A stretch of 64,000 nucleotides of DNA, taken from the NCBI RefSeq assembly GCF_009258045.1, contig NZ_CP041166.1, forward strand, positions 1,426,001 to 1,490,000, given 5' to 3'. Below, in pieces: positions 44,344 through 63,673 of the stretch. The DNA comes from Sulfurimonas xiamenensis (GTDB lineage Bacteria > Campylobacterota > Campylobacteria > Campylobacterales > Sulfurimonadaceae). The first letter of the stretch is position 1; every line of letters starts with the position of its first letter. The notes under the pieces are model-generated. The model ran no database searches and was not told where the DNA came from. It worked only from the letters and a program-made list of their open reading frames with translations. Made by a program: the position numbers and the translations under genes.

Positions 44344-44419
44344 GGCCAATTAGCTCAGTCGGTAGAGCAAGTGACTGAAAATCACTGTGTCCTTGGTTCG
44401 ATTCCGAGATTGGCCACCA
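44344..44419 (+). tRNA. tRNA-Phe (GAA), first copy
   Basis: A 76-nt cloverleaf. The acceptor GGCCAAT pairs with ATTGGCC (44409-44415) and encoded ACCA follows. The anticodon arm is AGTGA-CTGAAAA-TCACT, so the anticodon is GAA (Phe). T-loop TTCGATT is standard. Identical in sequence to the copy 105 bp downstream. Confidence 0.98.
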
Positions 44420-44448
44420 CCCTTTTAAAGACTTTCAAATTTTTTAAT

Positions 44449-44524
44449 GGCCAATTAGCTCAGTCGGTAGAGCAAGTGACTGAAAATCACTGTGTCCTTG
44501 GTTCGATTCCGAGATTGGCCACCA
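44449..44524 (+). tRNA. tRNA-Phe (GAA), second copy
   Basis: Identical to the first copy through all 76 nt, including the encoded ACCA and the following CCCTTTTA. The 29-bp spacer between copies shows the tandem duplication is recent or kept by gene conversion. Probably made from one precursor with the first copy. Confidence 0.98.
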
Positions 44525-44612: not shown

Positions 44613-44990
44613 GGGGCTGATCTGGTTTCGACGGGATCAAGTAGCTTCTAATTGCATGTCGGACTGAGCACTTCCGTTACGCGGCTCAACTTGCTTAAAC
44701 GCAAACAATACAAATTACCGCCCAGCTTACGCAGTAGCATAAGTTTTAACCCCTCGCAAGAGGTGGGCTGCTTCACCTGTTGACTCTAGATAGGCAGGAT
44801 TCGAAGTATAACCCTTATGTAGATATATTTTATGTACGCCTCGAACATAAAAAGAACTTCAGAGGATCGTCTTGTGTAGCTTTGCAAGTTGTGTAAAGCA
44901 GGATTAAACTTAAACAACTTTTCTAAACATGTAGACATTAGGAGTAGCGTGGTTTCGGACTGGAGTTCAATTGCCCTGCTCTAATTATCT
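44613..44990 (+). ncRNA. ssrA: Transfer-messenger RNA with altered 3' end
   Basis: Rescues stalled ribosomes. The 5' end GGGGCTGATCTGGTTTCGACGGG is canonical. The tag frame runs from resume codon GCA at 44701 to TAA at 44740-44742 and gives ANNTNYRPAYAVA, close to the Campylobacter/Helicobacter tags. The tRNA-like 3' part keeps GTGGTTTCGGACTGGAGTTCAATT, but after the T-loop (44966-44972) the sequence GCCCTGCTCTAATT does not pair well with the 5' T-strand, gives only a weak acceptor stem and lacks CCA. Either this end is an integration scar or the RNA is damaged. The 3' boundary is approximate. Confidence 0.88.
44966..44990. other. Probable left junction (attL-like) of the accessory island
   Basis: The canonical tmRNA sequence ends in the T-loop at about 44972. 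Tyrosine integrases often cross over in the T-loop of tmRNA or tRNA genes. Backbone genes lie to the left; only accessory genes (BREX, HTH, ParA-like) lie to the right. A matching right end and an integrase are not in the window, so this is inference. Confidence 0.5.
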
Positions 44991-44998
44991 ATATATTG

Positions 44999-45011
44999 CC
45001 TATTTATAGGG
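44999..45011. repeat. Direct repeat CCTATTTATAGGG, copy 1
   Basis: CCTATTTATAGGG followed by ATTT, just inside the island. The same 13 bases recur at 45199-45211. The unit is itself nearly palindromic (CCTAT..ATAGG), so it could be a binding site for a dimeric protein such as the adjacent HTH protein or an integrase. Confidence 0.6.
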
Positions 45012-45045
45012 ATTTATTAAAAAATTCTACATTCACATAGCTTAT

Positions 45046-45077
45046 AACTCACTTATATTTAACTTAAAACTCACTTA
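45046..45077. repeat. Two AACTCACTTA repeats 22 bp apart
   Basis: AACTCACTTA occurs at 45046-45055 and 45068-45077, a spacing of about two helical turns. Related fragments (AATCACTTTA, AACTCATATA) follow at 45164-45194. They sit in the 290-bp gene-free stretch between ssrA and the HTH gene. Such phased repeats are typical of regulator or integrase arm-type sites. Confidence 0.45.
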
Positions 45078-45193
45078 ATAAAGTAAATATAGTGCATCCA
45101 TAAAACCTATTCTTACATCCATTTTATCTTGATATATTAAAAATAGCTTAAAATTAATTACTTTAATCACTTTATCACTATTTTAACTCATAT

Positions 45194-45215
45194 AAATCCC
45201 TATTTATAGGGGTTT
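45194..45215. repeat. Inverted repeat and copy 2 of CCTATTTATAGGG
   Basis: AAATCCCTA (45194-45202) pairs with TAGGGGTTT (45207-45215), with one T-G wobble, around a TTTA loop. The core repeats copy 1 at 44999-45011. It lies about 62 bp before the HTH gene, in a good place for an operator of that gene. Confidence 0.55.
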
Positions 45216-45276
45216 GTGACTTTAAAGTAGTGGATTTTTTTTAGGAATACTTTCGTCATCTTAAACATACAAGGAC

Positions 45277-45582
45277 TTGATGATGGAAAATATAAAAGCA
45301 GTAAATAATACATACAACTCATATTTAAATATTCAAGTCAATGAATATTTTTTAGATGAATTACAAAAGAGGTATGGAAAACTATTACTCACTAAAAATG
45401 AGCTTGCGGAGGTTTTAAATCAAAGTCCTCGCACAATCTCAAATAAAATGAGTACTGGCACAATGAATATAAAATTCATTAAAACTGGAGATTCTATGCA
45501 ATCTGGAATTTTATTTCCTATTATAGCTGTTGCGGAGTACCTTACAAATCAAATGCATGAGAACTCTGCTTACGCTGCATAA
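45277..45582 (+). CDS. Small helix-turn-helix protein (excisionase/regulator-like)
   Basis: A 101-residue protein. Residues 36-60, LLTKNELAEVLNQSPRTISN plus KMSTG, form a clear helix-turn-helix of the MerR/excisionase (AlpA-like) type, and the C-terminal part LFPIIAVAEYLTNQ resembles the end of such proteins. It is the first gene after ssrA and the only candidate regulator before brxA, 176 bp upstream of it on the same strand. It could be a directionality factor for the island or a BREX regulator; the sequence does not decide. The ribosome site is weak (AAGGACTTGATG). Confidence 0.75.
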   Translation: MMMENIKAVNNTYNSYLNIQVNEYFLDELQKRYGKLLLTKNELAEVLNQSPRTISNKMSTGTMNIKFIKTGDSMQSGILFPIIAVAEYLTNQMHENSAYAA

Positions 45583-45758
45583 TTCAACTTACGAATACTC
45601 TCAGTGCTCTAATACAATACAAATTTACCAAAATAAAATTTTAATACAAAAAATTACTTTCTTTTATATGTTGGTTATTAAAAAAATGGTAAAATAGATT
45701 ACTTTTCTTCGTTTATATCTGTTTAAGAAAATTAATTTTTTATTGGTGGTTTAGTTCA

Positions 45759-46385
45759 GTGGGTTCAAGTTATATTTTATCATACACATCAACATCACTC
45801 GCATCTTATGAAGCGGAAATCATGGCAAATTTATATCATGAATTAAGTGACTGGTCAAGTGTTAGAAAAAGCGTTGTAGATGATAATTCTTTACAAAAGG
45901 ACACATTAGCAACAAGAAAAAGAAAGTTCGTAGAGATACGAAAAAGACTTGAAACATTAACTCCTGCTCAACTCTTATTTTATACAGAGGCAACGAGTAG
46001 TGATATAAAAAATTTAACTCTTTTGAGCTGTTACAAACTATATCAGTTCATCTATGATTTCTCATCAGAGGTTATACGAAACAAACTACTACTTTTTGAC
46101 TTTCAGATTCTAAACAGTGATTACGAATCGTTTTATGACAGTAAACGAGTAGCATATGACAATCTCAACACAATTTCAGAGATGACTCAGAAAAAACTCA
46201 AGCAAGTTATGTTTAAAATTTACGAGCAGGCTGGCTTGATAGATAGTGTCAAAACAAAAAATATTCTAAAGCCGTATCTTTCTGAAGAGCTTATTAAGCT
46301 CATCGTTCAGGATGACCCTAAATATTTAACTGCTTTTTTATACAATGACAATGAAATTAAAGATTATATGAAGAGATATCAATGA
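45759..46385 (+). CDS. brxA: BREX protein BrxA (DUF1819)
   Basis: A 208-residue protein of the DUF1819/BrxA family, a small DNA-binding helical protein required for or associated with type 1 BREX. Motifs seen are LASYEAEIMANLYHEL near the start and RKRKFVEIRKRLETL, then KLYQFIYDFSSEVIRNKLL. The start is GTG at 45759; the first internal ATG would remove the conserved N-terminal helix. First gene of the BREX core, it overlaps brxB by 4 bp. Confidence 0.9.
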   Translation: MGSSYILSYTSTSLASYEAEIMANLYHELSDWSSVRKSVVDDNSLQKDTLATRKRKFVEIRKRLETLTPAQLLFYTEATSSDIKNLTLLSCYKLYQFIYDFSSEVIRNKLLLFDFQILNSDYESFYDSKRVAYDNLNTISEMTQKKLKQVMFKIYEQAGLIDSVKTKNILKPYLSEELIKLIVQDDPKYLTAFLYNDNEIKDYMKRYQ

Positions 46386-46963
46386 AATTAGAATCATTAG
46401 ACACAAAATATGAAAAATTATTTAACAATCTAAGTAAAGAGAGTTTCTTATCCATGAGTGCTCTGGGTGGAGAGATACCTTTTTATATCGTACCATACAA
46501 CCCTGAGCAAGAGAATGATATCGTTCTAAAAACAAAACTTCTCAAAGATAGACTCTCTCGTGATGGGATAAGTGTTTTTGAAATCAATTTATTTGATTTG
46601 TCATTGGAAATGCTTGAGGAGCGTGGTGTATTGGAAAAAATAGTAGCCAAAGAGAGTGAGCTATCAAAAGCAAAACTCTTTAAAACACTTCAAGGTGTGC
46701 TTGATAGCGAAACTAAACTCATCCCTCGTATCGAAGAACTATGTAAAGAGAATGTTTCGCAAATAGTATTTTTAACTGGCATTGGACAGGTATTCCCATA
46801 TATTCGTTCTCACACTATTTTAAACAATCTTCAAAACAGTATTAAAGACAGACCAACAGTGATGTTTTTTCCAGGCACTTATGGAAGTGACCTATCTCTT
46901 TTTGGAAGATTAAAAGATGACAACTACTACCGAGCATTTAACCTTGACACACTAAACTTGTAA
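46382..46963 (+). CDS. brxB: BREX protein BrxB (DUF1788)
   Basis: A 193-residue DUF1788 protein of unknown biochemical activity, always next to brxC in type 1 BREX. The segments FYIVPYNPEQENDI and VFLTGIGQVFPYIRSHTILN, then PTVMFFPGTYGS, match the family. Overlaps brxA (ATGA) and is followed by brxC after 11 bp. Confidence 0.92.
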   Translation: MKLESLDTKYEKLFNNLSKESFLSMSALGGEIPFYIVPYNPEQENDIVLKTKLLKDRLSRDGISVFEINLFDLSLEMLEERGVLEKIVAKESELSKAKLFKTLQGVLDSETKLIPRIEELCKENVSQIVFLTGIGQVFPYIRSHTILNNLQNSIKDRPTVMFFPGTYGSDLSLFGRLKDDNYYRAFNLDTLNL

Positions 46964-46974
46964 GGATTGAGACA

Positions 46975-49900
46975 GTGATTGAAAGACTATTTAAAAAAGA
47001 TATTCATAGAAACATAGAAGGTGTTATTAAAGCTGACAACTTAACTGATGAAGCGATATTTCAAGAGGTTGATGAGTATGTCATTACCAATGACCTCAAT
47101 AAAAAGTTAGATGAGTTCTTCAGCGAATATAGTGGCAGCATAGGTAAAAACACTCAAAATGTCGGCGTTTGGATATCAGGACACTTTGGTTCGGGTAAAT
47201 CACACCTTTTAAAAATTCTCTCTTACATCCTTACAAATGAGAGAAAGCATTCAGACCTTATTGGGGAGCTGTTTTTAACTAAGATTGATGAAGATGATTT
47301 TGAGCTTAAAAACAACATTGAAAAAGCGTTAAAGACTCCATCAGAAACGATTTTGTTTAACATAGACCAAAAATCTGACATAGGTAGTAAAAATCAAGAT
47401 GACGCTATTCTTGGTGTCTTTATGAAAGTATTCAATGAAATGCGTGGATACTATCCTAAGTTTGGATATATCGCTAAATTTGAGAGCGACCTTGATAAAC
47501 GTGGCAAATTCAATTCCTTCAAGGAGAAGTTCAAAGAGCTAAGCGGTGAGAGTTGGGAAAGTGGAAGAGAGACAATCTTTTTAGAGAGTGATAACGTAGC
47601 AAAAGCTCTTTCAAGTGTTGATGACATCTCTGAGCAGAGTGCAATGGATTTAATTGACAAATATGAAGAGAACTATTCACTCTCAATCGAAGAGTTCGCT
47701 AAAGAAGTCAAAGCATATATAGATTCCAAAGAGCCAAATTTCAGACTTGTATTTTTTGTGGATGAAGTTGGTCAATACATCGGCGACAACACAAAACTCA
47801 TGCTAAACCTTCAAACTATTGTCGAAACATTAGCAACTGTTTGTGGCGGTCAAGCTTGGGTAATAGTAACATCTCAGTCAGCGGTTGATATGTTAGTAAA
47901 TTCTACATCGGCTATGGAAAATGATTTTTCTAAGATTATGGGACGCTTCAAAGTCAAGCTAAACCTTACGAGCCAAAATGCGAATGAAGTTATACAAAAA
48001 AGACTTCTTGAGAAGACTGATGAGGCAAAAGTTGACCTAAGCTCCATTCACAGTAAAATTCAAAATTCACTCTCTTCAATTATTCACTTTAGTGACAGAA
48101 GCAGACAATATCAAAACTACAAAGATAGTGAACACTTTACTTTAGTCTACCCATTCGTCCCATATCAGATGGATTTATTTCAGTCATGTATAAGTGGACT
48201 CTCAGACCATAGTGTTTTTCAAGGGAAACACCAGTCAAAGGGTGAGCGTAGTATGCTCGATGTGGTTCAAAACATTGCCAAAAGAATATCTACAGGCGAG
48301 ATAGGAACCATTGCAACTTTTGATATGTTCTTTGATGGACTCTCAGCTATTATCCGTGGGGATGTGCAAACACAAATCCAAAAGGCTTCTGATATTTTAG
48401 AACCGTTTGAGTCAAAGGTACTAAAGACTCTTTTTATGATTAAGTATGTAAAAGAGTTCACTCCAAACGTTGACAACATCGCTACACTACTTGTTCCTCA
48501 AATTATCAATGTCGATATCAGCGATTTAAAAAAGCAGGTTCAAAGTGCACTAAACCGACTTATAGACCAAACATACATCCAAAAAGTGGGTGAACAGTAT
48601 GAATTTTTGACAGATGTTGAAAAAGATATCGAAAAAGAGATTAAATCGACTTCAGTAGAGACTTCTGAGATAGTAGGAGAACTGGTCAACTGGATTTATG
48701 AAGATATCATCAAAATAAATAAAGTGCGATACTCTGGCAATAAACAAAACTACTCATTTACAAGAAAACTCGATGATACGATTGTCAAGGGCAAAGAAGA
48801 AGAGTTGACACTCAACATCATCACACCATTAAACTCTCAAGACTACGATGTTGAAAGGCTCATTCATAAATCTATTGCTGACAGTGGTATTATCTTAGCT
48901 CTTCCAAGTTCTTATGACTTTTCTCAAGACTTAGAGCTGTATGTCAAAACAAAAAAGTATATCCCTCAAAAACAAGGCGGTAGTGTTTCTGACAATGAAA
49001 GAAATCTTCTATTCAACAAAGCAAACGATAACAACAAACGTAGGGAAAAGCTTCAAAACGACCTAAAAGATTTCATCAGTGAGGCAAATCTATATCTAAG
49101 CGGTAAAGTTTTGGATATTGCTACAAAAGACATTAAAACAAAAATTGAAAATGCGTTTGAAGAGCTTATAACCAGCACTTACTCATATATTGGACTTTTA
49201 ACACAAGTATATGAAGAGAGAGATATAAGTGTTGTATTAAATCAAAGTGATGATTTACTCACAGGTAGTGATGACGCATTAACTCCAGCAGAGCAAGAGA
49301 TTTATACCTACATAGATAGACAGAAAAAGTCTCATAAGTCAACGACTATCTCTAACCTACTTGAGTATTTTCAAGTTCGTCCATATGGATGGTATCAAAA
49401 TGCCATTTTAGTCCAAATTGCTTCTATGTATATGAAGCAAAAAGTTGATTTAAAGCAGAACTCAACACCGCTAAATAAGCAAGAGGTTTTAAATGCTCTG
49501 ACAAATAACCGTCAATTCAACACACTTGTTGTACCAAAGACCATTATTGATGAGAAAAAGGTCAAAAAAACAAAAGAGATACTCTCCGAGCTTTATCCAA
49601 ATGCGACATTTAGTTCTACTTCAACAAGAGATATTTATGACATTGCTATACAAGAGACACAGAAACTCATAAGCACTTGTAAAAACTTTATGAACCTACA
49701 CTATCCTTTCAATAGTGAATTTCAAAAAATCATAGATATTTTAACTCCAATTGAAAAGCTTACTACAGAGACTTTATTTGATGAACTTTCAAATATGGAA
49801 GATGACCTACTTGATACTAAAGATGACATCATTGAACCAATTATGGAGTTTATGAACGGGGATAAGCGTCGTATCTATGACAGTGCTGTCAAATTTGTTC

Positions 49901-50457
49901 ATGATAACAAAGACAATCTTCGCTACATCAACGACACCCAAAAAAGTCTCCTTGAAGATTTGTCAAGTCAAACAAAACCATACAGTGGCAATCATATCCA
50001 ACAAGCAAAACAAGCACTTACAGCTATTGAAGCATTATTGCAACCACTTGTTGAAAAAACACGATTAGAAGCTTTTGAGAAGATAGATTCTATTATCAAA
50101 GAACTTCAAAGTAATGAACATTTTGAAAAAGTTCCATCAGCAGACAGATACAAAATCATTCGTCCAAGGGAAGAGCTAAAAAATAGCCTAACATTTACAA
50201 CGAGCATAGATACAATCAAACAAAGAACCAACGCTGAGGCTTTAGCTGATGAACTTAATCGTGGATTGGACACGCTCTTTGAACTAATACCACAAGAGGA
50301 AGTAACAGCTCCACAACCTACAACAGTACGTATTGCAACACTGACACCAAAAAGTAAAATCACACTCAAGAGCACTCAAGATGTCGAAGAGTATATTGAT
50401 AAGTTAAAAGAGAATCTTTTGAATGAAATTGATAATGGGAAACAGGTGTTATTGTAG
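46975..50457 (+). CDS. brxC: BREX ATPase BrxC
   Basis: A 1,160-residue P-loop protein, the large ATPase of the BREX complex, thought to work with PglX and PglZ. Walker A GHFGSGKSH is at 69-77 and the Walker B region FFVDEVGQYI at about 259-268. SQSAVDML follows as the sensor region. The rest is mostly helical with coiled coils near the C-terminus. The start is GTG at 46975 with AAGGA upstream. No frameshift is seen, so the gene is complete and full length for the family (about 1,200). Confidence 0.95.
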   Translation: MIERLFKKDIHRNIEGVIKADNLTDEAIFQEVDEYVITNDLNKKLDEFFSEYSGSIGKNTQNVGVWISGHFGSGKSHLLKILSYILTNERKHSDLIGELFLTKIDEDDFELKNNIEKALKTPSETILFNIDQKSDIGSKNQDDAILGVFMKVFNEMRGYYPKFGYIAKFESDLDKRGKFNSFKEKFKELSGESWESGRETIFLESDNVAKALSSVDDISEQSAMDLIDKYEENYSLSIEEFAKEVKAYIDSKEPNFRLVFFVDEVGQYIGDNTKLMLNLQTIVETLATVCGGQAWVIVTSQSAVDMLVNSTSAMENDFSKIMGRFKVKLNLTSQNANEVIQKRLLEKTDEAKVDLSSIHSKIQNSLSSIIHFSDRSRQYQNYKDSEHFTLVYPFVPYQMDLFQSCISGLSDHSVFQGKHQSKGERSMLDVVQNIAKRISTGEIGTIATFDMFFDGLSAIIRGDVQTQIQKASDILEPFESKVLKTLFMIKYVKEFTPNVDNIATLLVPQIINVDISDLKKQVQSALNRLIDQTYIQKVGEQYEFLTDVEKDIEKEIKSTSVETSEIVGELVNWIYEDIIKINKVRYSGNKQNYSFTRKLDDTIVKGKEEELTLNIITPLNSQDYDVERLIHKSIADSGIILALPSSYDFSQDLELYVKTKKYIPQKQGGSVSDNERNLLFNKANDNNKRREKLQNDLKDFISEANLYLSGKVLDIATKDIKTKIENAFEELITSTYSYIGLLTQVYEERDISVVLNQSDDLLTGSDDALTPAEQEIYTYIDRQKKSHKSTTISNLLEYFQVRPYGWYQNAILVQIASMYMKQKVDLKQNSTPLNKQEVLNALTNNRQFNTLVVPKTIIDEKKVKKTKEILSELYPNATFSSTSTRDIYDIAIQETQKLISTCKNFMNLHYPFNSEFQKIIDILTPIEKLTTETLFDELSNMEDDLLDTKDDIIEPIMEFMNGDKRRIYDSAVKFVHDNKDNLRYINDTQKSLLEDLSSQTKPYSGNHIQQAKQALTAIEALLQPLVEKTRLEAFEKIDSIIKELQSNEHFEKVPSADRYKIIRPREELKNSLTFTTSIDTIKQRTNAEALADELNRGLDTLFELIPQEEVTAPQPTTVRIATLTPKSKITLKSTQDVEEYIDKLKENLLNEIDNGKQVLL

Positions 50458-50460
50458 AAT

Positions 50461-50480
50461 GAGAAGTAATTATTACTCTC
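50461..50480. repeat. Near-palindrome after brxC
   Basis: GAG-A-AGTAAT-T-ATTACT-CTC: a nine-base inverted repeat with one bulged base and a single-base centre, 3 bp after the brxC stop. The centre is too small for an RNA hairpin without opening inner pairs, so a dimeric-protein site is as likely as a processing stem. It separates the brxABC group from the Abi-like gene. Confidence 0.45.
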
Positions 50481-50541
50481 GGCTACACCTCAAGGATGTA
50501 GGCTTACAAGAGAATTACAAGTGCATTATAGGAAATTGTTA

Positions 50542-51126
50542 ATGAAAGATGGCTTAATAAAAAAATTTATAACTGATAAACGGTTCCAAAGTTATGCGGA
50601 CATCTATGAGTATGAAGAGAATCTACACATATCAAAACGAGCCTATATTCCGTTGTCTATTTTAGAAGTTTCTTTACGCAATTCAATTGACGCATTACTG
50701 AGTGATAAAGTAGATGAAAACTGGCATACAGATGAAAGCTTTCTTACAAAAGACAGTGTATTTAAAATAAATCAAGCCATAGAACTACTTCAGCGAAGAA
50801 GAGAAAGTGTTTCTAAACATAAAATCATTGCTGAACTCTCTTTTGGTTTTTGGGTTAATCTTTTCAAAAAACCATATGACAAAAAACTCAGAATAAACGA
50901 CCTGAAAAAAATATTTCCAAATTTGCCACCTAAAAGTGTTGCACTTATTAACAGAGAAAAAATATACAAAGAACTCAATCATATAAGAAACTTCAGAAAT
51001 CGTGTATTTCACTACGAAAAAGTTGTTAATAAAGACGGTTACAATATGGTTTTCGAAGAAATAAATGAAATACTAAGATATTTTGACAATGACATCTATG
51101 AATTTGCAACAAAGGTAAATAACTAA
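50542..51126 (+). CDS. Abi-like HEPN-domain protein
   Basis: A 194-residue protein of the Abi_2/AbiD-F family found in phage abortive-infection systems. The HEPN nuclease motif R-x4-H is RNRVFH (R152 to H157), preceded by INREKIYKELNHIRNF. HEPN proteins are often metal-independent ribonucleases; activity here is inferred. I choose the ATG at 50542 (AGGAAA six bases upstream) over the GTG at 50521. The gene sits between brxC and pglX and abuts pglX (stop and start overlap by one base), so it is part of the BREX transcription unit. Not a BREX core gene. Confidence 0.82.
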   Translation: MKDGLIKKFITDKRFQSYADIYEYEENLHISKRAYIPLSILEVSLRNSIDALLSDKVDENWHTDESFLTKDSVFKINQAIELLQRRRESVSKHKIIAELSFGFWVNLFKKPYDKKLRINDLKKIFPNLPPKSVALINREKIYKELNHIRNFRNRVFHYEKVVNKDGYNMVFEEINEILRYFDNDIYEFATKVNN

Positions 51127-52763
51127 TGAACAAATCAGCACTAAAAAAATTCGCTACATCTATGAGGCTTGAACTCATAAGCCTTGTTAAAACAAAGATA
51201 AACTTTTTACTCTCAGATGGCTATAGAGAAAACTTAGCACTTTATAATACAAACAAGGTAGCCATTGCTCAGATTGCTGATAGATATGAAAAAAGCAAAG
51301 AAGACTTCATAGAAGAAGTAGCATACACATGGTTCAACCGTCTCGTAGCACTTAGATTTATGGATGTCAATGAGATAACATCATCGCCTATAATCTCAAC
51401 ATCTGATGAACAGCCAATACCTCAAATGTTCAGCGAAGCTAAAGCTGGAGATATCGATGAAGAGTTAAACCTAAACAGAGAACGCTTTTTTGACCTCATA
51501 GATAAAAAGGTATCTGGTATAAAAGACAGTGATAACGAAGCCTATAAAATGCTCTTTATATCTACATGTAATCACTTCTCTTTACTTATGCCATCTATGT
51601 TTGAACGCATAAGTGACTATACAGAGCTACTACTGCCAGATGACATGTTAAGTCCAAATTCACTCAGAGCTAAAGTAGTTAAAGCCATGAGTGAAGAGGA
51701 TTGTCAAGATATTGAAATCATCGGATGGTTGTATCAGTTTTACATCTCAGAGAAAAAAGATGATGTGTTTGCTCAGCTGAAAAAGAACAAGAAAATAACT
51801 CCAAGTAATATTCCTGCTGCTACGCAACTTTTTACACCTCACTGGATAGTAAAGTATATGGTTGAAAACTCTTTAGGAAAACTTTGGATGTTGAATCATC
51901 CAAACTCAAGCCTCAAAGAGCATATGAAGTACTATATAGACAACGAAAAAGAAAGCACTACTTTTATAAAAGTGGGAACTCCAGAAGAGCTGACATTTTT
52001 AGACCCTTGTTGTGGTAGTGGGCATACACTTACATATGCGTTTGACTTGCTCACACTCATCTACGAAGAACAAGGTTACAGTAAAAGTGACATCCCATCA
52101 CTCATTTTAGAAAAAAATCTGTTTGGATGTGACATCGACAAACGTGCTTCGGTACTTGCTAACTTTGCACTGACGATGAAAGCAAGACAGTACCATAAAA
52201 GATTTTTCAAAAAAGATGTCAAGCCAAATATAGTAGAACTTGAAGGTATTGATGGAATCAAGAACTATGGTTCTCTTATGGTTCCAAGTAGCGATGAGGA
52301 TTTTGATGAAGGGATGTTATCAAGAGAATACAAACTTCAAAAAAAGATACTTACATCAGAGTTTCATTGTGTAGTAACAAATCCGCCATATATGGGTGGC
52401 AAGGGAATGAATGCTGAGTTGAGTGAATTTGTAAAAAAACGATACCCAAATAGTAAGTCTGACTTGTTTGCTGTATTTTTGGAACGAGGTTTTGAGATGA
52501 TTAAAAATGATGGTTATATGGCAATGATTACAATGCAATCATGGATGTTTTTAAGTAGTTATGAAAAACTAAGAGTTAAATTACTGAAAAATTATTCTAT
52601 AACGACAATGGCACATCTTGATAATATGGTTATGGGTATAGCATTTGGGACATCAGCGACAGTCTTTAAAAAACAAAAACCGAATGAAAATACAAAGGCT
52701 GTTTACTTTAAAATCAATCTTGATGATTTAAATGAGAATAGAGAAATATTAGAATTAAAATAA
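51126..52763 (+). CDS. pglX: PglX, N-terminal methyltransferase half
   Basis: BREX adenine-specific DNA methyltransferase, N-terminal half, 545 residues. It has the PglX start (KKFATSMRLELISLVKTKI), SAM-binding DPCCGSGH at 293-300, and the catalytic NPPYMGG at 419-425. Full PglX is about 1,150-1,220 residues; here the frame stops at LELK, right after the SATVFKKQ segment, where other PglX continue into the specificity region. The C-terminal half is the separate gene at 55075. The stop is clean, with no obvious single-base frameshift. Active only if the halves associate, which is inference. Confidence 0.92.
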   Translation: MNKSALKKFATSMRLELISLVKTKINFLLSDGYRENLALYNTNKVAIAQIADRYEKSKEDFIEEVAYTWFNRLVALRFMDVNEITSSPIISTSDEQPIPQMFSEAKAGDIDEELNLNRERFFDLIDKKVSGIKDSDNEAYKMLFISTCNHFSLLMPSMFERISDYTELLLPDDMLSPNSLRAKVVKAMSEEDCQDIEIIGWLYQFYISEKKDDVFAQLKKNKKITPSNIPAATQLFTPHWIVKYMVENSLGKLWMLNHPNSSLKEHMKYYIDNEKESTTFIKVGTPEELTFLDPCCGSGHTLTYAFDLLTLIYEEQGYSKSDIPSLILEKNLFGCDIDKRASVLANFALTMKARQYHKRFFKKDVKPNIVELEGIDGIKNYGSLMVPSSDEDFDEGMLSREYKLQKKILTSEFHCVVTNPPYMGGKGMNAELSEFVKKRYPNSKSDLFAVFLERGFEMIKNDGYMAMITMQSWMFLSSYEKLRVKLLKNYSITTMAHLDNMVMGIAFGTSATVFKKQKPNENTKAVYFKINLDDLNENREILELK

Positions 52764-52774
52764 AGGAATCAATA

Positions 52775-53029
52775 ATGTATACAACAGCAGGCGAATACAC
52801 AGAATGGCATTTAACCCCTAATGGATGGGAAAGAGGAACACAAGTAACTGATTCAGGAAAAAAAATTAAGTCTTCTCCAGAAAACAGAGTTTTGACACTT
52901 AAATACGAGGAACATATGTCTTCCACTTTAAAGCTCAATACTCGTTGTGAACAAACATGGTCAAATAAAAATGAAGAACAAATCAATAAACTTATTGCAG
53001 AGTTTGGCGAATGTCCATGCAGTTTATAA
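52775..53029 (+). CDS. Small uncharacterised protein inside the pglX split
   Basis: An 84-residue protein that begins MYTTAGEYTEWHLTPNGWE and ends with EFGECPCSL. Its sequence is hydrophilic, with a GW..G turn and a Cys-rich tail (ECPC). I do not recognise a family. The ATG has AAGGAA upstream, so it is probably translated. It is the first of three genes lying between the two pglX halves, and begins 11 bp after the first half. Confidence 0.65.
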   Translation: MYTTAGEYTEWHLTPNGWERGTQVTDSGKKIKSSPENRVLTLKYEEHMSSTLKLNTRCEQTWSNKNEEQINKLIAEFGECPCSL

Positions 53030-53066
53030 AATAAAAGTAGAACAATGCATAAAAAGCACTTAAAAT

Positions 53067-54035
53067 ATGTCTAAAATAAGCTCAATAAAAATGGAACTGG
53101 TTAAAAAGTCAAGGGAATCAACTCTTGCTGCTGTTCAAATATATAATAATCCTACAATAACATTTAAAGCTGAGTCATTTATAGTTTTAACAATTATTTC
53201 TTGGACATATCTTTTGCATGCTTATTACAGAAGCAAAAAGATTGAATACAGATATTTTGATATAAAAGGTAGTGTACGAAGGTATCAAAAGACCAAGAAT
53301 GGTGCCTATAAACATTGGGAATTAGAAAAATGTTTAAATTTTCAAGATTCACCTATAGATAGAGACACTGCAAACAATTTAAAATTTCTAATTGGATTGA
53401 GGCATGAAATAGAACATCAAATGACTTCCAAAATTGATGAAATTTTAAGTGCAAGATTTCAAGCAGCGTGTTTAAATTACAACAAATATATCATTCAATT
53501 ATTTGGAGAAAAATTTTCGATTTCAAAGTATTTATCTTTTAGTCTACAATTTTCTACCATCAACACTGAGCAAAAAGAGCTTTTGGAAGAACACACAGAA
53601 TTACCTTCAAATATATTGAGCTATATTAAAACCTTTGATGATGACTTATCTACAGAAGAATACAATAGCCCAGAATATGCTTACAGGGTATTGTTCGTGC
53701 CTAAACTTGTAAATCATAAAGGACAAGCTGATAAGGTAATTGAATTTGTAAAAAGTGACTCGCCTCTTGCAAAAGGTATTAATAAAGAGTATACAGTTAT
53801 AAAAGAAACAGAAAAACAAAAATATCGTCCAAGCAAAATCGTAGAAAAAATGAAACAAGAAGGCTTTAATGAGTTCTCAATTTCATCACATACTTACTTA
53901 TGGCAAAAACGAGATGGAAAAAATCCAAAAAATAACTTCGGCATTGAAATTGAAGGACAATGGTACTGGTACGAACGATGGGTAGATGAAGTAAGGAAAC
54001 ATTGCATTAAAAATTATACTGAGGAAGAAAAATGA
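53067..54035 (+). CDS. DUF3644 protein, HEPN-like
   Basis: A 322-residue protein of the DUF3644 family. Residues 1-190 are the helical domain (KSRESTLAAVQIYNNP, WTYLLHAYYR, NFQDSPIDRDTANNLKFLIG), with RHEIEHQM at 112-119, where R112 and H117 give the R-x4-H spacing of HEPN ribonucleases. The C-terminal part (about 245-315) looks like a small DNA- or RNA-binding domain. Family members lie in defence islands. It starts 37 bp after the 84-residue gene and overlaps the next gene by 4 bp. Confidence 0.82.
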   Translation: MSKISSIKMELVKKSRESTLAAVQIYNNPTITFKAESFIVLTIISWTYLLHAYYRSKKIEYRYFDIKGSVRRYQKTKNGAYKHWELEKCLNFQDSPIDRDTANNLKFLIGLRHEIEHQMTSKIDEILSARFQAACLNYNKYIIQLFGEKFSISKYLSFSLQFSTINTEQKELLEEHTELPSNILSYIKTFDDDLSTEEYNSPEYAYRVLFVPKLVNHKGQADKVIEFVKSDSPLAKGINKEYTVIKETEKQKYRPSKIVEKMKQEGFNEFSISSHTYLWQKRDGKNPKNNFGIEIEGQWYWYERWVDEVRKHCIKNYTEEEK

Positions 54036-55078
54036 CAATATTCGTCAATTTTATCAGTAAAATTTTCAAACAGTGGATTATCTATTTAGGTTTTATTCCA
54101 GCATTATATGACTTATTAAATGCATACTTAAACTATGAATATAAATTTCCTGATTATGTCTTAATCGGATTTCCAATAATTATATTTTTATACGCAATAT
54201 ATCAAGTTTATAGAGATGAACACCTTCAGAGAATAGATTTAGAAAAAAAGCTTGAAGGACCAACAAACTATCAAATAAAAGCTGTGCTACACCCTGTTGA
54301 TTTTAAAAAAGATGAATTGATAAAACAGCTTGAGAGTATTAGATTAGATGTTGAAAAAAAACTATCATCAATGCCTTCATATGTGAAAGTAGATAATGTT
54401 GAGAAATATTCACAAATATCTTCACTTATATCAGCATCCGCTGGTTTGCATACTAAAACAGCAACAACATATAATAATGAGTTATCATCCTACAAGTGTG
54501 AATTAGAAAAAATAATATCCAATTCTGAGAAATATAAAGAAAAATTAGTTGCAAGAATAGATGAACTGAGTGATATTTTTTACTTTATTGATTTTTCTAT
54601 AGAAAACACAGGCATAACATCGGACTCTGAAATTCAAGTTGATATAAACTGTTTAAATAAAAATATTGTATTTAATGAAGTAGAAATCACACGTCATGGT
54701 ATGGATATATATAAACTAATACCATCAATACCTAAGGCTCCTGAAAAACCAGAAGTCCAAAACTTAAATCAGATGATGGGTATAAATGAAAGAGCATTTG
54801 ACTTCAATAGACCACATTTTGATATACCTAATCCTAATGCTTTTAGAAAATGGATTGAAATAACAAATAGTAATTGCTCTGTTACAATCAAAGATTTACA
54901 TGTTGGAGACAATGTAAGTCTGTTTAAGAAAAAGTTGATTCTTCAAAAAAATGACCATGATATTGTATTTGAAGCTACGATAAAGTCAAAGGCATCTACA
55001 AGAGTATTGAAGCCAAAAATTATTATTGAAATCAGTAATACACCAAAAACATTATTTAATTTTGAGGAAAAACTATGA
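54032..55078 (+). CDS. Membrane-anchored protein inside the pglX split
   Basis: A 348-residue protein with two N-terminal membrane helices (about 12-32 and 42-61), a helical linker with a coiled-coil character (about 67-180), and a C-terminal beta-rich domain (about 185-345). No known family is recognised. It overlaps the DUF3644 gene by 4 bp and the C-terminal pglX gene by 4 bp (ATGA), so the trio and the second half of pglX are translationally linked. A sensor or membrane effector paired with the HEPN protein would fit, but this is inference. Confidence 0.7.
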   Translation: MTIFVNFISKIFKQWIIYLGFIPALYDLLNAYLNYEYKFPDYVLIGFPIIIFLYAIYQVYRDEHLQRIDLEKKLEGPTNYQIKAVLHPVDFKKDELIKQLESIRLDVEKKLSSMPSYVKVDNVEKYSQISSLISASAGLHTKTATTYNNELSSYKCELEKIISNSEKYKEKLVARIDELSDIFYFIDFSIENTGITSDSEIQVDINCLNKNIVFNEVEITRHGMDIYKLIPSIPKAPEKPEVQNLNQMMGINERAFDFNRPHFDIPNPNAFRKWIEITNSNCSVTIKDLHVGDNVSLFKKKLILQKNDHDIVFEATIKSKASTRVLKPKIIIEISNTPKTLFNFEEKL

Positions 55079-56769
55079 GCACATTTGTCCGCCTAACAGA
55101 CTACAAAAGTAGTGATGAAAAAGAGCAGGGTTTTTTTAAACCTAAAAATAGATATGAAGCTAAACAAGAGGATTTTTCTAAAATCCCTACATCCCCTATT
55201 GCTTATTGGGTTAGTGATAAAGTGAAAAAAATATTTGAAAATCAAAAGATTAGTGAATATTCATTTTCAGATGGAAAAAATGTAACTGGGAATAATGATG
55301 AATATCTAAAACAAATATGGGAAATTAACTTAAATGATATAGGTCAAGATAATAAATGGCTTTTTATGATGAAGGGTGGGGATTTTAGAAAATGGTATGG
55401 TAACTTAGAATATGTAATGAATTGGAGTGAAGAGGCAAGAACTCACTATAAGAAGAATAAGGTAGGAAGGTTAATCCCAGAGTATTTATGGTATAAAAAA
55501 GGTATTACTTGGAGTAAAATTTCATCTAAAAATGCAAGTTTTAGAGTATTGCCAGAAATATGCACATTTGATGAAGTGAATATTAGTTTTAATGATTTAG
55601 ATAAATATAATTACATTCTTGCTTTTTTGAACTTATCAATTGCTAAATCATTACTTCAAATTACAAATCAAACATTAAGCTTTCAGACAGAAAACATTTT
55701 GAATCTTCCAATTATTTTTTCAGAATCAGAAGATATAAAGCAAAGAATAGAAACTATAACCCAACAAAACATAGACATCTCAAAAGAGGAATGGGACAGC
55801 CGAGAAACATCGTGGGACTTCACAAAAAATGAACTCATAAAACACAAATCAGATTCTAAAATTGAAACAGCATACACTAACTACTGTAACTATTGGAAAG
55901 AGCAACACAACACACTACACCATAACGAAGAAGAACTAAACAGACTGTTCATAGATATATATGAACTTCAAGATGAACTTACACCAGAGGTAGAGTTAAA
56001 AGATATAACGATACTAAAAAATGAAACGAAAATAGTTGATAGAGAGTTAGTCTTTCAAGCAGATGAGATTATGAAACAGTTTATCTCTTATGGTGTTGGT
56101 GTGATGTTTGGTAGATACTCACTTGATAGTGATGGACTGTTGATTGCAAATATGGGTCAAGAAGTTCCAACCTCTACAACATTTGTGATAGATGATGACA
56201 ATGTTATCCCTGTGCTTGAAGATGACTACTTCAAAGATGATATAGCTTCAAGATTTGTTCAGTTTGTTAAAACTACTTTTGGAGAGAATAGTTTACAAGA
56301 AAACATCCGCTTTATTGAAAACGCATTAGGTACAACAATTCGTAAGTATTTTGTAAAAGGGTTCTACGAAGACCATATCAAACGCTATAAAAAACGTCCA
56401 ATCTACTGGATGGTAAGTTCTCCTAAAAAAGGTTTCAATGTTCTCATATACATGCACCGATACCAGAGTGATGTATTTGCAAGGGTAAGAAACAGTTACC
56501 TCACAGAGTACATCAGCAAACTTGAATCACATAAAGAGACACTTCATCTAACAACTACATCTGAAACAGCTTCAGACAAAGATAAAAAAGACGCAGATAA
56601 GCAGATAAAAAACATAGAAACAAAACTCAAAGAGCTAATAGAGTTTGACCGAGAAAGTATGATGAGCTTCTCTCAAAATGGAGTGGATATTGATTTGGAC
56701 GATGGAGTAAAAGTCAACTACTGTAAATTCAAAGAGATACTCTATCCAATTACAGGGCTTTGTAAATAA
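55075..56769 (+). CDS. pglX: PglX, C-terminal specificity half
   Basis: C-terminal half of the BREX methyltransferase, 564 residues. It begins MSTFVRLTDYKSSDEKEQGF and goes on into the family motif DFSKIPTSPIAYWVSDK, which in intact PglX follows the catalytic domain. It contains the region expected to recognise DNA (about 80-250) and the typical end with KRPIYWMVSSPKKGFN and a helical tail. No SAM or NPPY motif is present. Start ATG overlaps the stop of the preceding gene. With the N-terminal half it totals 1,109 residues, close to a full PglX. Confidence 0.88.
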   Translation: MSTFVRLTDYKSSDEKEQGFFKPKNRYEAKQEDFSKIPTSPIAYWVSDKVKKIFENQKISEYSFSDGKNVTGNNDEYLKQIWEINLNDIGQDNKWLFMMKGGDFRKWYGNLEYVMNWSEEARTHYKKNKVGRLIPEYLWYKKGITWSKISSKNASFRVLPEICTFDEVNISFNDLDKYNYILAFLNLSIAKSLLQITNQTLSFQTENILNLPIIFSESEDIKQRIETITQQNIDISKEEWDSRETSWDFTKNELIKHKSDSKIETAYTNYCNYWKEQHNTLHHNEEELNRLFIDIYELQDELTPEVELKDITILKNETKIVDRELVFQADEIMKQFISYGVGVMFGRYSLDSDGLLIANMGQEVPTSTTFVIDDDNVIPVLEDDYFKDDIASRFVQFVKTTFGENSLQENIRFIENALGTTIRKYFVKGFYEDHIKRYKKRPIYWMVSSPKKGFNVLIYMHRYQSDVFARVRNSYLTEYISKLESHKETLHLTTTSETASDKDKKDADKQIKNIETKLKELIEFDRESMMSFSQNGVDIDLDDGVKVNYCKFKEILYPITGLCK

Positions 56770-57680
56770 TGAGTGATTACTGGTATACAGACGAGTATGG
56801 ACGGAAGCGTCATGTTCAAGATGGCGTTTCGTCTGATTCAGCACGCTATAGACATGAAAGTATATATAACCCCTTTTATGCTCATAGTGATTTTAGCAAA
56901 GATAGTTATCTATACTTGACATCATGTCCCAAATGTTTTGAAGCTGTCTACTATTGTAATTGTTCAAATGGTGGTCGTGTATTTTTTGATTCACTTGCAC
57001 CTGATTGGGATAAACATCCATGTACCTCTACAGCAACATATCAACCAAAAAATATCGACGAAAAATACTCATTAATAATACCTACACATAATTACTACCA
57101 GCGTCATGAAGATTATGAAAGAAGGTCGACTACATTTGAGGTTCCAAGTTTTCTAAAAAGTATTAAAATTAATACTACCGATGATATTCTATATAAAAAT
57201 CTGACACAAAATACTATGATTTTAGTCAGAGAATCCAATGGTAGGTTTTATTTAACTATTATAGTAACAACCAAAAAATTTAAAAATCATCATTTATGTA
57301 ATAACAAAAGATTTAATAATCAATATATTATGCAAGAATACATCATCAGTTTATTAAGTAAAGTTGATTTTACTCAAAGTGTTGATATCTCTAATGAAGT
57401 AATGCATACCAAGGGTAATAAAAAAATTATAAAACTTGATAAATTTCAATCTATTACAATAAATAAGAATCAAAAAAAGGCTAAGAAACCATCTAAAAAA
57501 AATGTTATTAAGAAGAATAAAATAAAGCAAGAATTTAAGCCAGTGGAACAAAAAGTATATGTTTCCAAAAAAACTGGGCTGAAAATAGTAAAAAAGAAAA
57601 ATACTGACATTATCAATGAAACAACAGAAAATGTTAGTGTAGAATCTTTAGAAGAAAATGAATGGAAGATAGTCAAATGA
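56769..57680 (+). CDS. Cysteine-rich probable zinc-binding protein within BREX
   Basis: A 303-residue protein. Residues 53-85 hold a metal-binding pattern C53-x2-C56, C63-x-C65, then GGRVFFDSLAPDWDKHPC with C85, a motif I have seen in defence-island proteins (CPxC...GGRVFFDxLxPxWxKHxC), so a zinc-binding role is likely. The C-terminal third (about 225-280) is strongly lysine-rich and may bind nucleic acid. Not a known BREX core gene. It overlaps pglX-C by one base and pglZ by 4 bp. Confidence 0.72.
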   Translation: MSDYWYTDEYGRKRHVQDGVSSDSARYRHESIYNPFYAHSDFSKDSYLYLTSCPKCFEAVYYCNCSNGGRVFFDSLAPDWDKHPCTSTATYQPKNIDEKYSLIIPTHNYYQRHEDYERRSTTFEVPSFLKSIKINTTDDILYKNLTQNTMILVRESNGRFYLTIIVTTKKFKNHHLCNNKRFNNQYIMQEYIISLLSKVDFTQSVDISNEVMHTKGNKKIIKLDKFQSITINKNQKKAKKPSKKNVIKKNKIKQEFKPVEQKVYVSKKTGLKIVKKKNTDIINETTENVSVESLEENEWKIVK

Positions 57681-60130
57681 TAGATATTAAACAAAGACTT
57701 ACAAGCATATTTGAAAAACAGCGATTAGTGTTTTGGTATGACGACAATGCTGAGCTAAAAGAACAGTTTGATAACATCAGCCTTGATAGTGTTGAAAAGC
57801 TTGTTATAGATAACAATGAGTTTAGCATTAAACGCCAACTATTAAAACTTCAGCCTGATGACAAGTTTTTAATCTACTCGCCAACTCATGCACCAAAAAA
57901 TGAAGCAAACTGGCTGCTGGATTTGAACATTGCAAACTACATGTTTAGTGCTGATAAGACAAGCCTTATACTACAAAACTTAGGACTGGATGTCACTTTT
58001 AAAGAGTTTGTAGGAAGATTCGATAAATTTCTTAATGCTCCAACACGAGTAGAAGCTCTAAAAACAACATTAAGTGAAAGAGAGACTCAAGACTCTTTAG
58101 GACTTAAAATGATGGCTGTAAGTATAGGATGTGATGATAACATAGCTTCTATAATGCTAAGAGTATTTGAAAATGAAAAACATTTTGAGACACTTAGTAA
58201 GTTTGCACTCGATGGACTCTTTTTTAAAGCTGTAAAAAGCAAGTTCGCTTATGAAGGAGAGAGTCTTAAAGACCTACTTCATAAACTCCTTCAAAATCAT
58301 TTTTATTTTTACTTAGACAAAAGCAAATGCACACTAAACTCTGATGCCAGACTATTTGTAAAAAGCTGGATGGACAGCAGTAGACATAAGGAAAGCTTTG
58401 AAAGAATCTCAAAAACAGTAGAGAATGAACTCAATATTAAAAACATCATAGCTGACGCTGATGCTTCAAAACTTATGATGTGTGACACTTATGAAAAATG
58501 TGACCAAGCAGTAATAAGCCATCTTTTAACTAAACTAAATAGTGATAATATCTCTTCAAAAGAGATGTCAAAGAGCATTGCAATTCGTGAGCATACGTTT
58601 TGGTATGAGAACTATCAAAACATCTATCAGGCGATACTAAGTGCTTCTGAGCTTTTTGACTTTGTAAAAGAGACTCGTCTAAGTATGAGTAGTTTTAATG
58701 ATGGAATAAAAGAGTATACACTTCACTGGCATAAAGCAGACAGATACTATAGAGAGTACTCTCTTGCTTCAAGTAAAGCTGAACATCTTGAACTACTAAA
58801 AGCACTCAATGTTAAAATAGAAGATGTCTATCTTAATGGCTATTTGAGAGAGTTAAATGACAACTGGCAAAGTTTTGCAGATACTTACACGGCACAAACT
58901 ACAACTTCACATCAACAACATTTTTATAGCAATGTTGTAGAAGCACATTTGAAGAAGAATCAAAAAGTATTCGTCATTATCTCAGACGCAATGCGTTATG
59001 AATGTGGAGTTGAACTTAGCTCAAAAATAGAGAGCATGGACAAATACAGCTCTTCATGTGAAAGTATGGTAAGTTCACTTCCATCTTACACTCAACTTGG
59101 GATGGCTTCTTTACTTCCTCATAAAGAGCTCTCTATCGGAGATAAAAACGACATCGTATTTATTGATGGCAAGTCATCATCAGGGATGGCAAACAGAGAT
59201 AAGATATTAAAATCATATGAAGAGAACGCTTCTGCTATTGGCTATGAAGAGTTTTTAAAGTTTAGTAAAAATAATGGTAGAGAGTTTGTTAAAAACAGCA
59301 GTGTCATCTACATCTATCATGACGAGATAGACAAGATGGGCGAAAAAAATGAGATAAAAACTTTTGACGCAGTTGTTAGTACATTTGATAGTCTCATTAA
59401 AGTAGTCAAACAAATCTCAAACTTTAACGGTTCTACCATCTACATCACAAGTGACCATGGATTTTTATATACTAACAGAGCGACTGAAGAAAGCGAGTTT
59501 TGTAAAGCAGAAGCAGAAGGAGCTATAAAGCTTAATCGTCGTTTCATCATAGGACAAGGCTTAAGTAAACAGACTTGTGTTGCCAAATATGATGGAAAAT
59601 CTCTTGGAATTGAGGGAGAAAATGATTTTCTCATTGCAAAATCTATCAATAAAATCAGAGTGCAAGGTGGTGGTAACCGTTTTGTACATGGGGGTGCAAC
59701 GCTACAGGAGTTAGTGATACCACTCATAAGCGTTAAAAAAGCTCGTAGCACTGATGTTAAAGATGTAAATGTAGAGATTATTCCACTGAGAAACATCTCA
59801 ACAAACACAGTCAATGTAGCACTTTACCAATCTGAAATAGTAGATGAAAAAACGCAACCAATAACACTGAAAATATCTTTTGAAAGTGTTGATGGTGTAA
59901 CTCTTTCTGATGAATTTAAACACACTTTTGACTCTACTGAGCAGTACGATACAAACAGAGAGTCAAGATTTAGACTAACATTTAAACAAGATATAAATAA
60001 GTATAACAATCAAACCATTAAACTTGTGACAAAGAAAGTGCTTGATGGCAGTAGTGAAACTCCAATATATAAAGAACTTGAAGTGAAATTGGCTCTCTCT
60101 TTCTTCAATGACTTCGATGATGATTTTTAG
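57677..60130 (+). CDS. pglZ: BREX phosphatase-fold protein PglZ
   Basis: An 817-residue alkaline-phosphatase-superfamily protein, the signature gene of BREX. Metal-site motifs are VIISDAMRYECG (Asp437) and ITSDHGFLYTN (D593, H594), with GNRFVHGGATLQELVIPLI after it. I start at the ATG at 57677, which overlaps the stop of the zinc-type gene (ATGA) and has GGAAG eight bases before; an upstream ATG at 57662 would add five residues. Intact and full length for a type 1 PglZ. Confidence 0.93.
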   Translation: MIDIKQRLTSIFEKQRLVFWYDDNAELKEQFDNISLDSVEKLVIDNNEFSIKRQLLKLQPDDKFLIYSPTHAPKNEANWLLDLNIANYMFSADKTSLILQNLGLDVTFKEFVGRFDKFLNAPTRVEALKTTLSERETQDSLGLKMMAVSIGCDDNIASIMLRVFENEKHFETLSKFALDGLFFKAVKSKFAYEGESLKDLLHKLLQNHFYFYLDKSKCTLNSDARLFVKSWMDSSRHKESFERISKTVENELNIKNIIADADASKLMMCDTYEKCDQAVISHLLTKLNSDNISSKEMSKSIAIREHTFWYENYQNIYQAILSASELFDFVKETRLSMSSFNDGIKEYTLHWHKADRYYREYSLASSKAEHLELLKALNVKIEDVYLNGYLRELNDNWQSFADTYTAQTTTSHQQHFYSNVVEAHLKKNQKVFVIISDAMRYECGVELSSKIESMDKYSSSCESMVSSLPSYTQLGMASLLPHKELSIGDKNDIVFIDGKSSSGMANRDKILKSYEENASAIGYEEFLKFSKNNGREFVKNSSVIYIYHDEIDKMGEKNEIKTFDAVVSTFDSLIKVVKQISNFNGSTIYITSDHGFLYTNRATEESEFCKAEAEGAIKLNRRFIIGQGLSKQTCVAKYDGKSLGIEGENDFLIAKSINKIRVQGGGNRFVHGGATLQELVIPLISVKKARSTDVKDVNVEIIPLRNISTNTVNVALYQSEIVDEKTQPITLKISFESVDGVTLSDEFKHTFDSTEQYDTNRESRFRLTFKQDINKYNNQTIKLVTKKVLDGSSETPIYKELEVKLALSFFNDFDDDF

Positions 60131-60133
60131 GAT

Positions 60134-62164: not shown

Positions 62165-62244
62165 TGGAAGTTATCGGAGCTGGAATCATAGCCATCATAG
62201 TGGTTTACTTTTTAGCTAAGGCTTTTGTATCACTTTTTTGGTAA
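62164..62244 (+). CDS. 26-residue single-pass membrane peptide
   Basis: ATG at 62164 shares its A with the TGA stop of brxL and the frame runs to TAA at 62242-62244. The peptide begins MEVIGAGIIAIIVVYFLAKA and ends FVSLFW, one continuous membrane helix with a charge near each end. No separate ribosome site is needed if coupled to brxL. No known family. The next gene, on the opposite strand, ends 3 bp later. It may be a real micropeptide or a chance frame. Confidence 0.5.
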   Translation: MEVIGAGIIAIIVVYFLAKAFVSLFW

Positions 62245-62246
62245 TT

Positions 62247-63188: not shown

Positions 63189-63348
63189 ATTATTAAAAAC
63201 ACCTTAAAATTCATATAAACCCTTGCTAATGCTTTATTTTACTAAAAAATCTGTTAATTAAAACCCTTGTTCTTGGGATATTTATAACTTTGAAGTCAAA
63301 TTTTTTCTTCTGTCACAATACGGAAAATCTAAACAAAAGGAAAAAAAG

Positions 63349-63627
63349 ATGAGAAACACAAAACGAGTTGTAAAAGTCACGACAAGTGAAATAGAGATTA
63401 TCACTCGTCACTATACCTATGAAGTGATAGTGGAAGAAGCTATGGCAGATGAGTTCATGGAAAAGATGAGTGAGCTGTGCGGTCATAAAGAGATTTATGA
63501 AGTGCTGAACAATCATGTGTGCAAATATATAACTCGCAAAGACGGAAAACAATATCCAAGTGATGAGAATTTTTCATCAAGCATTGATAAAGTTGAACTC
63601 CTAAATCAACCTGCTTGGAGCCTTTAG
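63349..63627 (+). CDS. Uncharacterised small protein of the island
   Basis: A 92-residue mixed alpha/beta protein beginning MRNTKRVVKVTTSEIEI and ending with a Trp (NQPAWSL). The ribosome site is strong (AAAGGAAAAAAAG). No family is recognised. I prefer this frame over the overlapping minus-strand frame (63313-63552), which has no ribosome site. The upstream 160 bp is shared with the divergent ParA-like gene and contains AAACCCTTG twice. Confidence 0.65.
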   Translation: MRNTKRVVKVTTSEIEIITRHYTYEVIVEEAMADEFMEKMSELCGHKEIYEVLNNHVCKYITRKDGKQYPSDENFSSSIDKVELLNQPAWSL

Positions 63628-63638
63628 TATAAAGGTTC
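63618..63638 (+). repeat. Stem-loop 1 of a covarying pair
   Basis: GAGCCTTTA-GTA-TAAAGGTTC, a 9-bp stem (one G-T) with a 3-base loop, overlapping the stop codon of the 92-residue gene. It resembles stem-loop 2 at 63653-63673, with changes that keep the pairing. Confidence 0.6.
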
Positions 63639-63652
63639 TTGCTGTTTTCTTT

Positions 63653-63673
63653 GAGCCTTCATTATGAGGGTTC
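63653..63673 (+). repeat. Stem-loop 2 of a covarying pair
   Basis: GAGCCTTCA-TTA-TGAGGGTTC forms the same 9-bp stem as stem-loop 1, with compensating differences (TTA/TAA becomes TCA/TGA) and a T-G wobble (T59-G69). It is 14 bp after stem-loop 1, in the gap before the last gene. No T-run follows, so it is not a plain terminator. Confidence 0.6.

Follow-up and report, generated by a model that had tools for sequence, protein, structure and literature searches.

A mobile element with BREX genes in the T-loop of the Sulfurimonas xiamenensis ssrA gene, probably compensating for the break with a complete ssrA of its own

The ssrA gene that starts at position 44613 of the window loses its canonical end at the T-loop. 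ssrA is essential in some Campylobacterota, and the locus raises the question of what removed the 3' end and which gene now provides tmRNA. An earlier note, made from the letters alone, had located the loss at the T-loop and offered three accounts of it: an unusual route to a functional 3' end, another ssrA elsewhere, or an element that replaced the end imperfectly. The window is the whole stretch of 64,000 nucleotides that was analysed (G000:C1:1426001-1490000); G000 is the genome from which it comes, a single contig of 1.92 Mb. Five-digit positions given alone are those of the window, seven-digit ones those of the G000 contig unless another genome is named. The host gene and its surroundings in the window are the following.

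44344..44524, + strand: a pair of tRNA-Phe genes ahead of ssrA, as in several relatives (native context)
44613..44968, + strand: 5' part of the host ssrA, broken in the T-loop, with tag frame ANNTNYRPAYAVA
44964..44968, + strand: AGTTC, the short core common to attL and attR
44969..44986, + strand: element sequence in place of T-stem, acceptor strand and CCA

With ARAGORN, the window yields no tmRNA. The Rfam tmRNA model reaches 102.5 bits over 44613-44986, with mismatched final helices, so the covariance-model check proposed in the earlier note shows a bad fit at this end. At standard spacing, two of five T-stem pairs and two of seven acceptor pairs form, and CCA is absent. T-stem (5/5), acceptor (7/7) and CCA are intact in all 73 comparison rows, taken from a set of 77 ssrA rows from which three broken copies and one gene at a contig end were left out; most of the rows are ARAGORN calls, which biases the set toward well-formed ends. 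The CCA end is likewise present in 29/29 relatives placed by the Rfam model alone. If the spacing is allowed to slide, the window copy reaches 6/7 acceptor pairs, which is the fit given in the earlier note, and 4/5 T-stem pairs. This pairing is chance, because 33% and 36% of shuffles, respectively, equal it. In folding, the 37-nt end does not surpass its own shuffles (z -0.29). The gene had been described as standard up to TTCAATT. A break in the T-loop is correct, but host sequence stops after GGAGTTC at 44968, where the closest relatives go on with GATCCTCCACAGCTCCACCA; AATT is element sequence, because the sequence at this point is GTTCGATCC in close relatives and in the displaced host end.

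A search for the lost 3' end within the window alone gave nothing useful, because the island extends past the window. The missing 20-nt end of the host gene, GATCCTCCACAGCTCCACCA, lies outside it at the far end of the element (G000:C1:1497860-1497879), beyond an integrase gene at the right island end, which is where the earlier note had advised looking. A search of the genome with the missing-end sequence TTCGATCCTCCACAGCTCCACCA gives a zero-mismatch match at 1497857-1497879. As the earlier note supposed, the site of the break is of the integrase type. The displaced ssrA fragment marks the far end of the element, as in islands of the Islander type. Joining the left and right flanks gives a complete tmRNA gene accepted by ARAGORN, with tag ANNTNYRPAYAVA and an identity of 360/377 to ssrA of G005, an uninterrupted relative, of 355/376 to that of G004 and of 346/385 to that of G020. 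The unjoined left junction gives no tmRNA with ARAGORN; a functional gene is not regenerated there as it is by a restoring island. G020 has murD-purN-ssrA-prs-lepA in uninterrupted order, and in G000 these genes lie on either side of the islands (prs was located by tblastn; the names murD, purN and lepA come from reading of the ORFs). The earlier note held that its claim would fall if relatives carried the same 3' sequence; they carry a normal end, and the claim stands.

The attP site (TTTTTAGACAAAAGTTC/AATTGCCCTGC) and its target have only AGTTC in common, and for that reason the host gene stays dead. The attP core resembles a worn ssrA T-arm. Another ssrA-like T-arm, TTAGGGACTTGAGTTCGATTCCCAA, lies between the integrase gene and attR (L008:9611-9635) and matches 20/25 positions of a typed consensus, where 20 shuffles reached 15-16; it is perhaps an old attachment core. 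Judged from its sequence, the break is recent, because the broken copy is altered at just one of 160 family-invariant positions, like host genes (0-7).

A second island, ~4.8 kb long, lies downstream of the displaced 3' end (L008:9881-14640, G000:C1:1497880-1502639). It sits in this displaced ssrA end, so that the two form a tandem array; it codes for an integrase with an arm-DNA-binding domain (L008:10068-11312) and ends at another CCACAGCTCCACCA (L008:14627-14640).

The suggestion that another ssrA exists proved right. Two tmRNA matches in G000 exceed the cut-off: the window copy at 102.5 bits and a complete copy 25 kb further on.

1495909-1496283: complete element ssrA (151.1 bits), adjoining the integrase gene inside the att-bounded element

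It has a T-stem of 5/5 pairs, an acceptor of 7/7, an ACCA end, TATAAT upstream and a tag, ANNTNYRPALAVA, one residue apart from the host tag ANNTNYRPAYAVA. Its T-stem strands, AAGGG/CCCTT, pair together; those of the host gene are TGGAG/CTCCA. One of the 160 family-invariant positions is altered, and identity to the broken left copy is about 83%. Trees that leave out the 3' end place the broken copy among host relatives in a clade of 38 rows (99/93, with the bootstrap not settled) and the element copy outside this clade, within another branch (95/91). This position indicates that the element ssrA comes from another lineage of the family. The tmRNA of the cell now seems to come from this gene, which would be expressed, sufficient and needed for stable integration.

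The element itself carries the following features.

44969..64000, + strand: left ~19.0 kb of the integrated element, which continues to G000:C1:1497859 (~26.9 kb in total)
45046..45055, + strand: AACTCACTTA, putative arm-type integrase site, first of four in the island
45068..45077, + strand: AACTCACTTA, putative arm-type integrase site, second of four
45286..45582, + strand: excisionase-like protein (PHROG 1300, E 1.1e-5)
45759..46385, + strand: brxA (PADLOC)
46382..46963, + strand: brxB (PADLOC)
46975..50457, + strand: brxC (PADLOC)
51126..52763, + strand: pglX, N-terminal part (PADLOC)
55075..56769, + strand: pglX, C-terminal part (PADLOC)
57662..60130, + strand: pglZ (PADLOC)
60134..62164, + strand: brxL (PADLOC)
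1496305-1497597, - strand: tyrosine integrase, its start facing the right junction (attR)

The integrase gene lies inside the element and adjoins attR. The protein is assigned by family to the tyrosine integrases and would act at the ssrA site. The decamer AACTCACTTA, chosen because both island ends have it, has four copies in the island as a whole, always on a single strand: two lie no more than 110 bases from the left end and two within ~165 bases of the right end; this layout is as expected of arm-type integrase sites and makes them putative ones. The excisionase-like protein has Pfam matches below cut-offs only, and is related to a protein encoded next to the integrase gene of the G474-type element described below (35% over 68 aa). 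A BREX gene set consists of brxA, brxB, brxC, pglX, pglZ and brxL. The element has the full set, all six matching PADLOC models, with pglX as two ORFs. The two pglX parts are separated by two genes (53067-54035 and 54032-55078), the first of which is a PDC-S19 candidate-defence match. The right part of the element codes for an AAA_25 ATPase, which we take to be RepA-like, an ArdC-type protein and, with a Pfam E of 0.39 only, a possible relaxase. A PHROG scan of five element proteins gave integration and DNA metabolism families and one family of unknown function, and none that is structural.

A broken host ssrA together with a complete second one is also found in G474, which belongs to another genus of the same family (both ends found), and in G072 (one end). 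The broken gene of G474 reads GGTTCAATCC and then TTTAGG, with a complete ssrA ~140 bp on. Its native 3' end, CCGGACGCCTCCACCA, lies ~18 kb off at 1981269-1981284, is adjoined by a tyrosine integrase gene and is preceded by TTTTTTGGACAAAAGTTC, nearly the same arm as in G000. At the ends of this element, the parts that were examined, AAGACCAC occurs twice near each. The integrases of G000 and G474 are about 23% identical over 269 matched columns. A Sulfurimonas MAG contig (L103, in G507) has an integrase 98% identical to that of G474 and the same right junction; the gene is flanked by the element and prs and stands ahead of a different native end. The native ends downstream of the G474-type element are CCGGACGCC and CTCCACAGC. 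No ssrA was found in a search of this MAG assembly, and G126, from the genus of the window, gives the same matches as G507. A search of six genomes for attL and the second ssrA of G474, run with no positive control, gave nothing. Beyond attR of G474, a second copy of the native ssrA 3' end lies 2 kb away (L100:7259, G474:C4:1979247-1979262), and a PAS/GGDEF-like gene (domains by reading) stands between the two copies, a tandem remnant.

In G072, a truncated ssrA is followed by a complete one on contig C321, the far end is not on that contig, and a third ssrA is present in the bin (C20). The second ssrA may itself be decaying, because 8/160 invariant positions are altered (hosts 0-7). The element ssrA genes of G000, G474 and G072 do not form one group in trees, which suggests separate captures by the three elements. 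Those of G474 and G072 come from a close lineage, and for them the tree therefore does not give a foreign origin.

The arrangement is rare. In the phylum sample, two ssrA matches were present in 2/397 genomes (G000 and G474) and none in 4/397, counting matches with E no higher than 1e-12 among up to three scored candidates in each genome. At least two tmRNA matches over the cut-off occur in 4/135 genomes of the genus sample (G000, G072, G092, G104), and a broken plus a complete ssrA in 2/135 (G000, G072). The extra tmRNA of G092 (L053, G092:C6:4516-4795) is divergent, 280 nt long, tagged ANANNKNFSRVALVA and located near tRNA-Cys and tRNA-Ile on a contig of 7.4 kb; it is perhaps from a phage, and a normal ssrA is also present in G092. 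That of G104 (L051, G104:C37:3757-4110) is a 208-bit match with tag ADSEYEYALAA, unlike other family tags seen, and is probably contamination of the bin. Several near-complete genomes of the genus, such as G131 (100% complete, 30 contigs), G044 and G149, have no ssrA over the Rfam cut-off; this could reflect assembly gaps at ssrA duplicated by islands. Other candidates were rejected: the ssrA of G109 is at a contig end, and contig C28 has the overlapping intact 3' end; G500 has two pieces that seem to be one gene on contig ends that overlap; G356, G364 and G452 have two BLAST matches each but one gene each by the Rfam model; and G083 and G112 code for integrases 40-45% identical to that of G474, yet their ssrA genes are intact and on other contigs.

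Free or phage forms were also sought. Neither integrase nor ssrA had a match in the plasmid search, nor ssrA in the phage search; the integrase matches 14 phage records, with identities of 23.0-27.5%. No relative was confirmed by three protein scans of viral contigs, and a genome-contig scan with the integrase confirmed 0 of 594 pattern matches. The att-arm scan led to two contigs, L103 and a Thermoanaerobaculum match that looks like chance. The bare attP motif on ten viral contigs also looks like chance; ARAGORN gave no tmRNA among the matches listed.

These observations are very probably explained by a non-repairing BREX element of ~26.9 kb that entered the T-loop of the host ssrA and compensates with its own. 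The tyrosine integrase of the element would have inserted it into the T-loop. The gene is not rebuilt on integration because attP has only the ~5 bp core in common with the target. The left junction holds the truncated host ssrA, and the 20-nt 3' end of the host is stranded past the right junction. The complete ssrA beside the integrase gene would supply tmRNA, with tag ANNTNYRPALAVA replacing ANNTNYRPAYAVA, and precise excision would restore the host gene. The sequences show the two junctions, the stranded host end, the empty site, an intact second gene of another lineage and the recurrence in other genomes. A core of 5 bp is short for the overlap of a tyrosine integrase and counts against this explanation, as do the failure of the searches above to find a free form or a close relative of the integrase, the rarity of the pattern in the genus and phylum samples, the possible decay of the second ssrA in G072, and the close lineage of the second ssrA in G474 and G072. 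Imperfect replacement of the end is not the best description of such an element, which supplies a whole second gene.

An unusual 3' end processing with CCA addition could in principle let the left copy still yield a working tmRNA, and its 356 well-conserved 5' bases and the TATAAT upstream are in keeping with this. It is very improbable: T-stem and acceptor pair at chance level, CCA is missing, the end folds no better than shuffles, ARAGORN rejects the gene and an intact ssrA is present elsewhere in the genome, so that this account from the earlier note went unsupported. Somewhat less improbable, and still unlikely, is an ordinary restoring island whose replacement 3' end has decayed, the second ssrA being an unrelated later arrival or duplication. 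The attP still like a worn T-arm and the further T-arm-like piece between integrase gene and attR speak for it, but with one altered invariant position in 160 decay can have had little time, the att sites enclose the second ssrA, which adjoins the integrase gene, and the combination recurs in G474 and G072. As the origin of such an element a decayed restoring island may be right: the likeness of the attP core and of the piece between integrase gene and attR to the ssrA T-arm suggests a restoring island as the ancestor, with decay of attP following the acquisition of a whole ssrA, an order of events that we infer.

The second ssrA might also be a hybrid, with a 5' part from the element and the host 3' end at the right junction. 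Integration that replaces the 5' part is conceivable, 5' fragments being listed by Islander for 159 islands and 3' fragments for 3760 (PMC4383910). The hybrid is rejected by the position of the host 3' end, found elsewhere at 1497860-1497879, and by the T-stem strands of the second copy, which pair with each other and differ from those of the host; in addition, the integrase gene separates this ssrA from the junction. Assembly error or contamination has an equally negligible chance. Duplicate genes can cause misassembly, but the assembly is one contig, 100% complete with 0.18% contamination, matching repeats stand at both ends, and the same architecture is found in another genus (G474).

The non-repairing element with its own ssrA may exemplify a wider behaviour. 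That mobile elements of Campylobacterota repeatedly break the T-loop of the host ssrA unrepaired and bring a whole ssrA, a "tmRNA-dependent integration", is a tentative generalisation to which we give slightly less than even confidence. If true, loss of the element would be difficult for the cell, which presumably depends on the element's ssrA; this suggests a way for an island to tie a host to its maintenance. An attP freed from mimicking the ssrA 3' end may let one element use hosts with different ssrA ends, and ssrA alleles and tags would pass between lineages. Some genomes with two ssrA genes would be explained, in which the first ssrA found may be dead.

Ordinary tDNA islands rebuild the gene because their attP carries the missing fragment (Islander, PMC4383910; Dehalococcoides, PMC3146451). 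The element here is like them in its tyrosine integrase and in integration in the 3' tRNA-like part of ssrA, and the site of the Dehalococcoides vcr island is also in the T-loop; in contrast, vcr islands have a 20 bp direct repeat and restore the gene (PMC3146451), whereas this element brings a whole gene instead. Islander finds ssrA to be a more enriched integration target than every type of tRNA isoacceptor (PMC4383910). PMC4131195 records genomes that have two or three ssrA genes, together with duplicate calls that were pseudogenes or island fragments. A complete ssrA on a mobile element is also described for phages (methylophage Melnitz, PMC9004378; list in PMC4131195), but for Melnitz the account gives no integrase found and no broken host ssrA. 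In the CP4-57 prophage at the E. coli ssrA, the state of the element is coupled to tmRNA function, as here; CP4-57 excision inactivates tmRNA (PMC10107115), whereas here it is integration that breaks the host gene, and excision should make it whole again.

The closest likeness is to mycobacteriophages such as Fionnbharth and Gaia with their tRNA-dependent lysogeny (PMC10865867); another paper reports a similar tRNA replacement in Sinorhizobium. In both the mycobacteriophages and this element, a tyrosine integrase goes with an attB inside an RNA gene that is not rebuilt, a replacement gene of the same kind is carried, and arm-type sites flank a short common core, of 8-10 bp in the phages and ~5 bp here. 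The phages are temperate, the gene is a tRNA and dependence was proven with mutants; here the gene is a tmRNA, the cargo is BREX, the element may not be a phage and dependence is inferred. tmRNA is mentioned three times in PMC10865867, as attB sites only. No description of an ssrA-breaking element with its own ssrA was found in the literature consulted, which does not establish its absence from print. What appears new, relative to the tRNA equivalent known in mycobacteriophages, is an island that breaks the tmRNA gene with no repair and brings its own. Encoding tmRNA and disrupting a tmRNA gene, the element is the counterpart of that system for a different kind of gene; tmRNA-dependent integration is best read as the tmRNA form of tRNA-dependent lysogeny, and would be a non-repairing alternative at ssrA that extends it to tmRNA and to a defence island.
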